Positions 2,861 to 30,056 of a stretch of 64,000 bases of DNA are shown here, one piece after another (position 1 is the stretch's first letter; the number at the start of each line of letters is the position of its first letter). The DNA is taken from contig JAMPDC010000001.1 in the NCBI GenBank assembly GCA_023665865.1, positions 753,981-817,980 on the forward strand, in the 5' to 3' direction. Below the pieces are notes generated by a model, which saw only the letters and a list, made by a program, of their open reading frames with translations, searched no databases and was not told where the DNA came from. Source of the stretch: Staphylococcus sp. GTDB lineage: Bacteria; Bacteroidota; Bacteroidia; Bacteroidales; Muribaculaceae. The position numbers were made by a program, and so were the translations under genes.

Positions 2861-2898
2861 AAAAAAAGCTACAGCTCTCACAACGGAGACCTGTAGCT
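2861..2898 (-). terminator. Rho-independent terminator of the small-ORF transcript
   Basis: On the minus strand the stem AGCTACAG/CTGTAGCT (8 bp, 16-base loop) is followed by seven T residues. It would end a transcript arriving from the small ORFs at 3078-3400. Confidence 0.8.
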
Positions 2899-3077
2899 TG
2901 TTGATTTCATTATATCAATGCTATTGAATGATCTAAAAAGAGGGACGGGTCTGAACGCCGCGGACTTTTGACGGCACGATTGCCGCTTTTCAATCCTGAT
3001 AGTTTTGTCTGTTTCAGACGTTCCTTGTCCCCTGAGGGAGAATTCGGGCGTACCGTTGTGGCGCGCTCCGTCGATTA

Positions 3078-3179
3078 TCAGAGTTCGTGATAATGTTCGG
3101 AGTCATTCACACGATACATGAGGGCTGCTGATTCGCAATACCACTCGATGGCTTTTTTTACCATTTTTGTTACTTTCAT
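3078..3179 (-). CDS. Putative small protein, 33 residues (second of a pair)
   Basis: An ATG at 3179 opens a 33-codon frame ending in TGA at 3078-3080. The peptide begins MKVTKMVKKAIEWYCESAAL and ends with an acidic/His-rich tail. The first half would form a basic amphipathic helix carrying one cysteine; there is no signal peptide. It follows the 40-codon frame at 3278-3400 by about 100 bases and precedes a clear terminator, which supports a transcribed unit. I do not recognise the family. That it is translated is inference from position, an ordinary start context and composition. Confidence 0.5.
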   Translation of the reverse strand: MKVTKMVKKAIEWYCESAALMYRVNDSEHYHEL

Positions 3180-3277
3180 AATGCGTTCATTTTAAAAGTT
3201 AAACATACATGGGAGAATTAATTGATTTTGCTTTCCGGCGACGTGAGGAGACGCTACGGCAGCTTTGGATGTCGGCC

Positions 3278-3400
3278 TCATTCCATCTCTTCATGCGAGC
3301 GGTAGACGCAGTCTCCGGTCGTACGGAAACAGTCTCGCTCGCCGAGAGTGCGGAAGAATGAGTGAACGTCTGCTTTGAGAACCTTAAACATGTTGGTCAT
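3278..3400 (-). CDS. Putative small protein, 40 residues (first of a pair)
   Basis: An ATG at 3400 opens a 40-codon frame ending in TGA at 3278-3280. The peptide begins MTNMFKVLKADVHSFFRTLG, continues with a Cys/Arg-rich middle and ends HEEME. It has no signal peptide or membrane segment. It is preceded by an A/T-rich stretch typical of Bacteroidales starts, a strongly structured leader (3462-3519) and a TAACTTTG promoter box (3554-3561). No known family recognised; it may be a cytosolic regulatory peptide or the translated part of a dual-function RNA. Confidence 0.5.
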   Translation of the reverse strand: MTNMFKVLKADVHSFFRTLGERDCFRTTGDCVYRSHEEME

Positions 3401-3461
3401 AGTTGCAGAATTTTTAATTAAACCTTAAATAAAACAATCTTTTTTTTCTCTCTTATGAAAT

Positions 3462-3519
3462 CCGATAGCGCTCTGCTGACGTTATTAGGACGAACCCTAT
3501 TCATCAGCATCGCTATCGG
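3462..3519 (-). promoter_or_regulatory. Structured 5' leader hairpin upstream of the small ORFs
   Basis: The arms CCGATAGCG and CGCTATCGG pair perfectly over 9 bp. Inside them TGCTGA pairs with TCAGCA and TAGG with CCTA around a 6-base loop, giving a three-segment stem. There is no T-run next to it on either strand, so it is not a simple terminator. It lies between the promoter box and the first small start codon. Confidence 0.6.
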
Positions 3520-3553
3520 CTTCGTTCACTAATACTAACATTCAAATACGCTG

Positions 3554-3561
3554 CAAAGTTA
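3554..3561 (-). promoter_or_regulatory. Bacteroidota -7 box (TAACTTTG) for the small-ORF locus
   Basis: The minus strand reads TAACTTTG, a full match to TAnnTTTG. Transcription from here would start near 3548 and give a leader of about 150 bases before the ATG at 3400. A TTTG at 3577-3574 lies closer than the usual -33 spacing. Confidence 0.55.
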
Positions 3562-3722
3562 GATGTATTTTCTCAAATTATGCTATAAAAATATGTTCTT
3601 TAACATAAATCCCACCCGAAACCCCTCTGTATCCACGCATTTAACATTGTTAATTTCAAATGTTAAAATCGCAAATTATTGAGAAGATAAAACTATTGTG
3701 AAGATAATATATTACTTTAGAC

Positions 3723-3815: not shown

Positions 3816-6734
3816 TCAACGAATAAACTTAAGAGAGCGATCTTTGATTCGCATTATATATATGCCATGCGGTAACTGTGGGCAATTTCCTAATTTCCCA
3901 TTAAAAACCATATTCCCATTTAAGTCAATTATAATACATGTATCGTCAAATTGAAAATCAATATTATCTACTTTACTGCTACCTTTACCCACAACTTTAA
4001 TCCTTATCTTTTTATCAATAATATAATTTGACATTCGAATTGTAATATTTATATCACATTCTCCAATGCTCTTAGCATGAAGAATTCCATCATTTATTAT
4101 ATCAGCAATTTCATCGTTAGACGATTCCCATTCGATATTATCAAATGTTCCATCTAATGGTTCTGTCTGTATCGGAATAATGAACTTACTATCTTCACAA
4201 ACTTCTAGTTCCTCAGGCACTATTAGATCCTTGAGATCCGGATTTCTCTTGGATTTTAAAAACATATTCGGATATATAAATAGGACACTGGATCCCACTG
4301 GATTAGTCGAATAATCTATAATTTCGCTATGGCAAAATTCTTTATCTACAGATTGATTTCCCCATCCATATATATCACCATCTGTTGACAATGCAATAGC
4401 ATAATCTTCAGAAACCGATATTGTTTCATATCTTACATTTCCTGAAGGACTTTCTTTAATTCTGACTGCTCCTTCAGAATTTATAAATCTATTATTACTC
4501 TTAAAATAATCATCTCCTTCATAAGAAAAGTAATCACCGAGTCTAAAATTTGAGTTTGTACCCCAGCCAAATAGTTCTCCGTTGTTTGTTATATAGTATC
4601 CTCTATTAGAATTGCCTTCTAACATTTTTACATTTTCTGCGAACTTTCTCACTTTCATCAAATTAGTTGTTTCTGTCACTTGCCACGCTGTACCATCTTC
4701 TTTTAAATATATTGGGAGAGAGCGCGCGATACCCCCTAAAATAGAAGCGGATTTAACACCATAATCGATCGGTTTAGGAGTTTTATACTGTTCATTGGAA
4801 TTTCCACTAAATGTTCCCCAACCGCCTAATTGACCTGTATTCATTAGCGCTAGAACAAAATTATCCCCAGCAAACACAGACTTAACATTATATGCAAGTA
4901 ATATTGGAGTGTCTGAATATTTTTCGCCATATCTATTTGATTTAGTGCCCTTACCCATTAGCTCATAACTCGTATCTCTTCCTACTCCATACAGACATTC
5001 ATCATCTGTAACATAAAACAATGCTCCATTAAGCGCTATATCTGAAACATTTTTTGCATACAATCTTGGAATAGAGCCAAAATTATCTAGGAGATATTGT
5101 GTGCCAGCCACCCATAAATTGTGATCAGTATCTATATACGCAATCAAAGAACCAGTACAGACCCCCTTGATTGCATTAGGATACTCATGCATACTATTAA
5201 CCCCAGATGACGATAATGCACCCCAATAATGCAATACTTTATCCGATGTTATATAAAGAGAGCCTTTTTCCCCTGCATGTATTGAAATAGGATGACAAAT
5301 ATCCACTTCGTCATGAGGAACAGTCTCCCATGCATATTCTAATGCTATATTAGTATCACCCGAACTTGATAATAAACTATATTCCGGTATTAATATTTTA
5401 CATACATGTTTTCCTTTGGAATCCAAGCCTTCCGGAAACAGATATAGTTTTTTATCATAAATCGTACACTCTATGTTTGCTTGCTTCCCATCTACAGTAA
5501 ACTTTAAATTAGATTTATTTACATCCTTTAGTATTGAATTAAATTCGATAAATGGACGATTGAAATCACTCACATTTTTATCACTATTATCCGGAAACTT
5601 CTTTATAACTTTTAAAGATGTTATTTCTATATCAAGATTTATGATTTCACTTGATATGTAATCATTATGAATTGCAACAGCACGTAATTGTGTAGAATTT
5701 TGCAATTTGATAGGTTCTACATACTTATTACTCCTTTCGGTTGGATTTGATCCATCTGTCGTATAATATATAGTTGCATTAGAATTATCACTTCTAAGCT
5801 CAACTACCGTCCCTTTCTCGTAAAGACCAGACTGCAATGAGGAAAATATTTTTAGTTTCGATTTATTTACAGTAACTTGACAAGAAGAGGATAGACCATT
5901 AGAAGTCCTCACAGTAACAATAGAATTACCATAACGTAGTGCCTTTATTGTTCCTGAAGCAACCGTAATAACTGACGGATTTGATGTTGACCATGTATAT
6001 GATGTTTGCGCATTTGAAGGGCTCAACGTTGGCGTAATTGATCTTGACTCACCTGAAGTCATTGTAATAGCTGATGGGATGTACACAGATATAGGATCTA
6101 TTTTTTCTATGATGATCTTTACAGATGCAACATTTCCTCCTAAATTTGATGATGCAGTAATTGTTGCTTCACCTGCCCGCAAAGCTGTTACCATACCAAA
6201 TTGATCTACTATAGCAGTACTTGACCCGCAATTCCATTTTATATTGGGGGTTACATTATATGAGGAACTAGCGAATCTATAATTTAGTTGCATCGTTTCT
6301 CCGACAGCCATTTTAGGTCGTGGCGCAGATATTATAATATCATTACCCTCACACCTAAGCGTATGGTATTCTCTTGAAGTTCCAGCATGCATATTGCCGT
6401 TACTATATACAATAGTATAACTTAAAAAACATTCAATCGTAACAGAACCTTCAAAATAAGATGTTATCGTAACTTCTCCTAAACCATCTGTATTTTTAAT
6501 ATTAACTTTTGAACTTGAGCACGAATATGACCATGAATTTAAGTAACTATTTTTTACTGGAGCCTGCGGAATAGGCAAAATAAACACCTCGCCTACTTTC
6601 TTAGTATAAGATTCAGCATTTACTGAAACGGGAGTAATACAGCATAACAAAATAGTCATTACTAATACTTGTAACCAATTAAACTGATTTTTTTGCTTCT
6701 TATCGAACATAACAATATCTGAATTATAGTACAC
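3816..6734 (-). CDS. Large secreted protein with BIG2, chitobiase-like and RCC1-like regions and a sorting tail
   Basis: The protein has 972 residues from the first ATG; an ATG at 6710 (MFDKKQKN) is equally possible and gives a more compact signal peptide ending near SVNAES. In order it shows: bacterial Ig-like BIG2 units (about 130-290, with phrases such as ALRAGEATITASS); a chitobiase C-terminal-like Ig unit (about 300-370, with TIYYTTDGSNPTE); an Ig-like linker; a region of RCC1-like repeats (about 480-800) with recurring GWG and LYGVG; a further BIG2-like stretch; and a tail IYIMRIKDRSLKFIR resembling type IX sorting domains. It should be exported and probably adhesive or surface-bound. 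The gene is much more AT-rich than its neighbours, which suggests acquisition. It starts 35 bases after apbE. Function unknown. Confidence 0.85.
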   Translation of the reverse strand: MYYNSDIVMFDKKQKNQFNWLQVLVMTILLCCITPVSVNAESYTKKVGEVFILPIPQAPVKNSYLNSWSYSCSSSKVNIKNTDGLGEVTITSYFEGSVTIECFLSYTIVYSNGNMHAGTSREYHTLRCEGNDIIISAPRPKMAVGETMQLNYRFASSSYNVTPNIKWNCGSSTAIVDQFGMVTALRAGEATITASSNLGGNVASVKIIIEKIDPISVYIPSAITMTSGESRSITPTLSPSNAQTSYTWSTSNPSVITVASGTIKALRYGNSIVTVRTSNGLSSSCQVTVNKSKLKIFSSLQSGLYEKGTVVELRSDNSNATIYYTTDGSNPTERSNKYVEPIKLQNSTQLRAVAIHNDYISSEIINLDIEITSLKVIKKFPDNSDKNVSDFNRPFIEFNSILKDVNKSNLKFTVDGKQANIECTIYDKKLYLFPEGLDSKGKHVCKILIPEYSLLSSSGDTNIALEYAWETVPHDEVDICHPISIHAGEKGSLYITSDKVLHYWGALSSSGVNSMHEYPNAIKGVCTGSLIAYIDTDHNLWVAGTQYLLDNFGSIPRLYAKNVSDIALNGALFYVTDDECLYGVGRDTSYELMGKGTKSNRYGEKYSDTPILLAYNVKSVFAGDNFVLALMNTGQLGGWGTFSGNSNEQYKTPKPIDYGVKSASILGGIARSLPIYLKEDGTAWQVTETTNLMKVRKFAENVKMLEGNSNRGYYITNNGELFGWGTNSNFRLGDYFSYEGDDYFKSNNRFINSEGAVRIKESPSGNVRYETISVSEDYAIALSTDGDIYGWGNQSVDKEFCHSEIIDYSTNPVGSSVLFIYPNMFLKSKRNPDLKDLIVPEELEVCEDSKFIIPIQTEPLDGTFDNIEWESSNDEIADIINDGILHAKSIGECDINITIRMSNYIIDKKIRIKVVGKGSSKVDNIDFQFDDTCIIIDLNGNMVFNGKLGNCPQLPHGIYIMRIKDRSLKFIR

Positions 6735-7786: not shown

Positions 7787-7823
7787 TATTCGGTCTGAGA
7801 TTGTTTTATACGTGATTTTTCCT

Positions 7824-29708: not shown

Positions 29709-30056
29709 TTTATCACCGGGCTTTTGACAAATGCCCCCGAAGCCCGGAGAAACAGGGGCAAAAAAAATTGATTGTCTCTCGACAACCAATCTTAGTTAAC
29801 CTTAAATCTAATACCATGAAAAACACGTTACAAAGGTAAGCACTTTTGCAATTCCCGCCAAATTTTGCCACTTCAAAATGCTTGATTTTAACATATTTTT
29901 TGACATAAATGTCATTTTTCCATGAAACTCGTGAATTTTTGGCAATATTTGGGCGTTTTGGTGACATTTTGCTATTGCCGCTACATATTCTGTCTGAAAG
30001 CATACTGAAACTCTGAATCCAAAGCCGGACAATGTGGCAAAAACCGGATTTTTTTG
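29709..30056. other. Intergenic stretch with overlapping hairpins and a 7-codon frame; no gene called
   Basis: CCGGGCTT (29716-29723) can pair with AAGCCCGG (29740-29747), while TGCCCC (29732-29737) can pair with GGGGCA (29755-29760); the two are mutually exclusive. A TTAACCTTAAATC-type leader precedes a short frame MKNTLQR (29816-29839). On the minus strand TACCTTTG (29839-29832) matches a -7 box. The rest, 29840-30056, is AT-rich with nothing I can support. Confidence 0.4.

Follow-up and report, generated by a model that had tools for sequence, protein, structure and literature searches.

The minus strand of the window (the whole stretch of DNA analysed here, 64,000 nucleotides long) carries what we read, with a probability of about 0.7, as a self-contained operon for two conserved microproteins, pep1 and pep2, under a Cur-type (CRP-family) promoter. 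It forms a closed minus-strand unit between a prolyl oligopeptidase gene (424-2607) and the gene of a 972-residue Ig-like/RCC1 protein (3816-6734), with the following features.

3592..3607: Cur/BT4338-type palindrome TATGTT-N4-AACATA, perfect 12/12 core
3579..3584, minus strand: AGCATA, a degenerate proximal half-site 17 bp ahead of the -7 box
3554..3561, minus strand: promoter -7 box TAACTTTG (TAnnTTTG of Bacteroidota)
3401..3553, minus strand: 5' leader of at most 153 nt, whole-leader z -2.58
3462..3519, minus strand: leader hairpin, -30.5 kcal/mol, z -5.85
3278..3400, minus strand: pep1, 40 aa
3180..3277, minus strand: intercistronic region, 98 nt
3078..3179, minus strand: pep2, 33 aa
2941..3032, minus strand: 3'UTR RNA fold P1/P2/P3
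2861..2899, minus strand: intrinsic terminator, a hairpin of -20 kcal/mol (z -6.11) followed by a T run

A sequence-only reading of this DNA had described the promoter box, a 40-codon and a 33-codon frame and a clean terminator, all of which are present at these positions. We conclude that this is a genuine operon for microproteins, that its promoter is of Cur type, and that it probably falls within an already known regulon. As to its surroundings, the Ig-like/RCC1 gene sits between ApbE and the operon, and it may be an insertion, because some relatives (such as L151 and L010-L013) have no large frame listed there. Just past the terminator, at positions 2655-2860 of the window, short repeats of the GAGAATTGAGAAT and CGACTCCCGACT types form, by eye, arrays that are oppositely oriented.

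Both peptides are conserved in Duncaniella and in other genera of one family. We sought pep1 in 61 relatives and then searched 247 family genomes with a profile built from the 16 genus sequences; at E < 1e-5 this profile has matches in 38 of the 247, spread over six genera, and in 16 of the 27 genomes of the genus. A convincing pep1 is absent from 11 of the 27 genus genomes, so that the gene is either dispensable or has been missed in drafts. The pep2 profile finds matches, some of them partial, in 31 of the 247 family genomes at E <= 1e-3. The two genes stand in tandem at 32 of the 39 pep1 loci, with a spacing of -4 to 230 nt, and pep2 is alone at 16 of all 55 loci, counts that come from related genomes and are thus non-independent. 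At the seven pep1 loci without pep2 there is one, L096, where the contig ends; by eye, the remainder of its operon starts L124, from the same genome. The substitution pattern is that expected of coding sequence, with pN/pS at 0.27 for pep1 and likewise for pep2, against 0.88-1.38 in the frames shifted by +1 or +2 (uncorrected proportions from 28 pairs of 8 Duncaniella loci, with L008 and L010-L016 left out). Both frames are therefore genes under frame-specific purifying selection, and the proposal of a small-protein locus, along with the conservation of its frames in relatives, is borne out. Residues R26, T28, G29, D30 and C31 of pep1 (R-x-T-G-D-C) are invariant in 28 of 28 aligned rows, as are Y14 and Y22 of pep2 in 30 rows, in which W13 is almost invariant. 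We also note that the leaders of L102 (also L238), L106 and L110 contain an extra frame 5' of pep1 that resembles, by eye, a pep1 duplicate minus the TGDC motif.

The earlier statement that neither peptide fits a known family agrees with searches of Pfam, NCBIfam and PADLOC, which gave no match at threshold; the best sub-threshold matches were to a PHROG (E 0.042) and to DUF3319 (E 0.014, below its cut-off), and no relative of solved structure was found below E 0.4. Candidate relatives outside the family, sought among 295 genomes of the order, reached only E 0.001 to 0.01 and were not accepted; they lie in long frames, contain stops, or are short and weak. No paper was found for the pep1 motif variants FRVTGDC, FRITGDC, MRITGDC, MRVTGDC and FRTTGDC, and among the titles listed in searches for small proteins of Bacteroides or Duncaniella, or in connection with Cur, with subscription journals and preprints outside their scope, none concerned these peptides; we have seen no earlier report of them in the literature searched. 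The neighbours of the operon offer no functional clue, as none is common across other genera. An origin in a phage or mobile element was considered and set aside: a contig from a viral collection with a pep1-pep2 pair, L153 (IMGVR_UViG_3300006099_000257, IMG/VR), is probably host sequence, because an ApbE-cluster gene lies upstream of the pair, as it does at 12 of 16 genus loci.

The promoter places the operon in a regulatory context. The palindrome at 3592-3607 lies 30 bp from TAACTTTG, just beyond the interval covered by the sequence-only reading, and was missed there. Its core has a single match in the window at up to one mismatch, where 0.08 would be expected, and the window genome (2.69 Mb) has six perfect palindromes, against none for the reversed control. 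Cur/BT4338 is the regulator that acts on carbon limitation in Bacteroides, and its published box is wwwTATGTTnTAnAACATAwww (PMC3878776), with in vivo evidence at fusA2 and further description of the regulator in PMC6989115; in the window the 12-base core of this consensus is perfect, and its inner TA reads AA. We examined 55 loci, 52 of which have at least 300 nt of upstream sequence (L099, L107 and L124 being incomplete). A Cur-type box with no more than one mismatch is present in 47 of the 52, 37 of them perfect, compared with 0 of 52 for the reversed control and a shuffle mean of 0.17. Within 300 nt upstream, all 37 loci with pep1 have the box, as do 10 of the 15 that have pep2 only; the five without it despite full upstream sequence are L112, L115, L119, L123 and L125. 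The spacing is also maintained, in that 29 of the 39 pep1 loci have a TAnnTTTG either 29 bp (seven loci) or 30 bp (22 loci) from the palindrome; no TAnnTTTG at these spacings is present in the other ten, two of which have incomplete sequence. The promoter thus carries a Cur palindrome at a fixed spacing. Most of these 29 promoters also have a degenerate half-site, some 16-17 bp ahead of TAnnTTTG, whose G, C and A each predominate at their position (21 or 22 promoters out of 29), and the AGCATA half-site in the window presumably has a promoter function.

The window genome has two CRP-family genes, one of which, with cNMP-binding and Crp HTH domains and a one-mismatch box 17 bp before its start, is a candidate Cur ortholog. 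Perfect boxes precede genes for a glycogen debranching enzyme and an aldose epimerase, and one-mismatch boxes precede those for EF-G2 (fusA2), an NrtR/AraR-type regulator, glutamate dehydrogenase and an aquaporin. The EF-G2 call rests on EFG2_Bacteroid as the best NCBIfam model, in a match that is partial as the stretch ends, and its box has no TAnnTTTG in its direction within the stretch checked. There are 13 further one-mismatch sites in the genome versus four in the control, so that some of them must be chance occurrences. In relatives the same box precedes PckA-like and GlgB-like genes, which we named by eye. The set of boxes before the glycogen debranching enzyme, aldose epimerase, EF-G2, glutamate dehydrogenase and AraR-like genes fits the published Cur regulon.

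Related microproteins lie behind promoters of this type at other places in the genome and in other members of the family. Behind another perfect Cur-type site in the window genome is a 35-residue frame, pep3, which has matches in 10 of 149 family genomes; all ten loci have a Cur-type box, nine of them perfect and nine at 16-bp spacing. Aligned with one stand-alone relative of pep2, pep3 reads as pep2 plus a five-residue insert and scores 49 to 76 (shuffle maxima 35 to 47); with a second stand-alone relative it scores 36 to 51 (shuffles 30 to 43), and with the pep2 of the window only 30 to 41 (p 0.006 to 0.02). On these alignments pep3 is a pep2 relative and a third predicted microprotein. A search by promoter only, for the box followed at 15-31 bp by TAnnTTTG in 69 family genomes, returned 37 strict sites in 23 of them, compared with two in the control. 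Thirteen of the 37 precede relatives of pep1, pep2 or pep3 (by our own reading seven pep1-pep2 units, four pep3 and two pep2-like genes), and these include L240, L251 and L253, which had been below the peptide-profile thresholds before the promoter search. Three more (L158, L233 and L257) precede FopS sRNAs as assigned by Rfam, and the remaining 21 have ordinary genes ahead, or nothing nameable. The window genome has three strict Cur-type promoters, those of the pep1-pep2 operon, of pep3 and of one FopS copy, and of its three remaining perfect boxes two precede carbohydrate enzymes. The window itself has a FopS sRNA (RF04319) at 29758-29826 on the minus strand that is without a Cur palindrome, whereas the copies at L158, L233 and L257 have one.

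The transcript is predicted to be highly structured, its 706-nt stretch folding with z -7.13 (20 shuffles). The leader hairpin at 3462-3519 is as the sequence-only reading described it, with none of 200 shuffles folding as well, but the RNA-level control proposed from it is weakly supported, as only three of 30 leaders reach z -2 or below. At genus level the hairpin is not conserved, whereas the frames are: the leaders do not align in the hairpin region, and those of the Duncaniella loci L010-L013 are about 50 nt long with no strong hairpin. A conserved riboswitch-like element was considered for this hairpin and rejected as a general feature, the leaders failing to align and 27 of the 30 falling short of z -2. 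A known RNA family for the locus was rejected as well; Rfam gave nothing at threshold there, a permissive search produced matches that look like chance (best E 0.41), and there is no FopS (RF04319) match at the gathering score at the pep1-pep2 locus. A short sequence, AGATTGTTTTA, occurs in the window at 3430-3440 (minus strand) and 7798-7808 (plus strand), twice where 0.02 would be expected, and it recurs in the pep leaders of several genera; it may be a general 5'UTR element. A gene resembling a Fur-type regulator may be preceded by a short RNA at L156, where the minus strand has, by eye, what look like a promoter box and a terminator hairpin behind a perfect Cur-type box (G000:C1:1099632-1099647). 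This putative RNA has no Rfam match, and its 5' part contains a complement to AGATTGTTTTA as present in the leader of pep1.

Downstream of the frames, the two small hairpins reported earlier fared differently, with that near 2972-2988 present in the predicted fold and that at 3014-3026 missing as a local hairpin from the fold of 2938-3036, where by eye GTCTGAAACAGAC, at 3007-3019, is the closest local inverted repeat. The 3'UTR fold consists of P1 (GGGAC/GUCCC), P2 (GAACGUC/GGCGUUC, or GACGUUC) and P3 (CGGCA-AUCG-UGCCG). RNAalifold on nine rows predicts P1 and P2 unaided, with one pair showing a double-sided change and a covariation term of only -0.11; folded alone, the window 3'UTR keeps P1 and P3 and forms GUCUGAA/UUCAGAC pairs in place of P2. 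The fold is kept in nine Duncaniella genomes, and in the seven rows counted 95.2% of cells are paired, compared with 23.8 to 48.8% for slid versions; these seven rows have two double-sided changes, both in L008. However, shuffles reach the values of the fold in 43 to 249 of 500 trials, depending on the measure. A model of the 3'UTR (R1) matches its nine source loci plus L153, and of the 27 genus genomes only the nine from which it was built have the fold at the operon; among 61 genomes there is no convincing copy away from the operon (one weak match, in G038, at E 0.058), and the model has no match at the peptide-keeping loci of other genera. In one subclade of Duncaniella this fold probably serves to protect or tune the message.

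These structures bear on the earlier suggestion of a dual-function RNA, by which the transcript would be mainly regulatory, through the leader hairpin or an sRNA derived from the 3'UTR, with the peptides secondary. The stability of the whole stretch and the 3'UTR fold kept in nine genomes are in its favour, as are the three FopS sRNAs with the same promoter type and MasB, a known Cur-driven sRNA (PMC10994844). Nonetheless, the selection acts on codons, leader structure is not general, the 3'UTR model goes unmatched at the peptide loci of other genera, and with shuffles equalling the 3'UTR fold, so little covariation and no convincing copy elsewhere, the suggestion is not substantiated and we consider it rather unlikely. 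It is likewise improbable that the palindrome belongs to another CRP/FNR-family regulator, in which case the signal would not be carbon limitation; the genome does have two CRP-family genes, but perfect boxes before the glycogen debranching enzyme and aldose epimerase genes, one-mismatch boxes before those for EF-G2, glutamate dehydrogenase and the AraR-like regulator, and the boxes seen by eye before PckA-like and GlgB-like genes of relatives, all fit Cur.

Two adjacent, very short and probably helical peptides in one operon could also be a toxin-antitoxin pair or a two-peptide bacteriocin. We regard this as very unlikely: PADLOC has no match, a check against the criteria for toxin-antitoxin systems and class IIb bacteriocins found neither a family match nor a partner for immunity or export, no gene next to the operon that recurs across genera could fill such a role, pep2 occurs without pep1 at the 16 loci noted above, and pep3 has a unit of its own. 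The mean hydrophobicity is, moreover, near zero or negative in ten peptides, with no hint of membrane spans. Short frames on a structured transcript might be leader or attenuator peptides for a downstream gene, an explanation that is hardly tenable given that the terminator closes the unit and that the downstream gene varies among genomes.

By eye, pep1 and pep2 look like short helices that are amphipathic in part, and neither has an obvious signal peptide or membrane span; their amphipathicity is moderate, that of pep1 from the window not being significant (shuffle p 0.109) and that of pep2 having p 0.034. In the mechanism we propose, when carbon is short Cur would bind at 3592-3607 and activate transcription from about 3548, and the bicistronic message would yield pep1 and pep2. 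The likeliest mode of action would be intracellular binding of the peptides to a larger target, such as the ribosome, the surface of the inner membrane or a protein complex, with contacts predicted at the invariant RxTGDC of pep1 and at the W-Y...A..Y face of pep2, and this binding would adjust growth or metabolism under carbon limitation. We regard pep1 and pep2 as putative starvation-induced small helical regulators. Tentatively, we suggest in addition that the Muribaculaceae Cur may deploy a dedicated microprotein family, pep1/pep2/pep3, whose promoters are among the strictest Cur promoters of the genome, together with FopS sRNAs, and that the pep1-pep2 pair may reprogram the cell when carbon is limiting.

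If the peptides are made, a layer of the starvation response of these gut bacteria has gone unnoticed because gene finders miss frames this short, and a promoter-first search is then a direct route to further genes of this kind. In Bacteroides, colonisation of the gut depends on Cur (PMC6989115). The regulator of FopS on bile exposure is described as unknown in PMC11697453, and the Cur-type box before some FopS copies bears on this question.

The closest known system is the Cur regulon of Bacteroides thetaiotaomicron, with which the window genome shares the palindrome TATGTT-N4-AACATA and boxes before carbon genes and, with one mismatch, EF-G2. Unlike the window operon, the targets named in the portions of the Cur literature drawn on here are enzymes, regulators, fusA2 and the sRNA MasB, with no microproteins among them. 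FopS sRNAs are non-coding and repress PUL genes (PMC11697453). The three FopS copies (RF04319; L158, L233 and L257) resemble the window operon in lying behind a Cur-type promoter, but pep1 and pep2, unlike FopS, are coding. SgrT and SpfP of E. coli are very short proteins tied to sugar stress or to CRP control. The peptides of the window are similar to these in their very small size and in the proposed link to sugar stress or CRP control, and they differ in being encoded by two genes in one operon rather than as a peptide inside a known sRNA.
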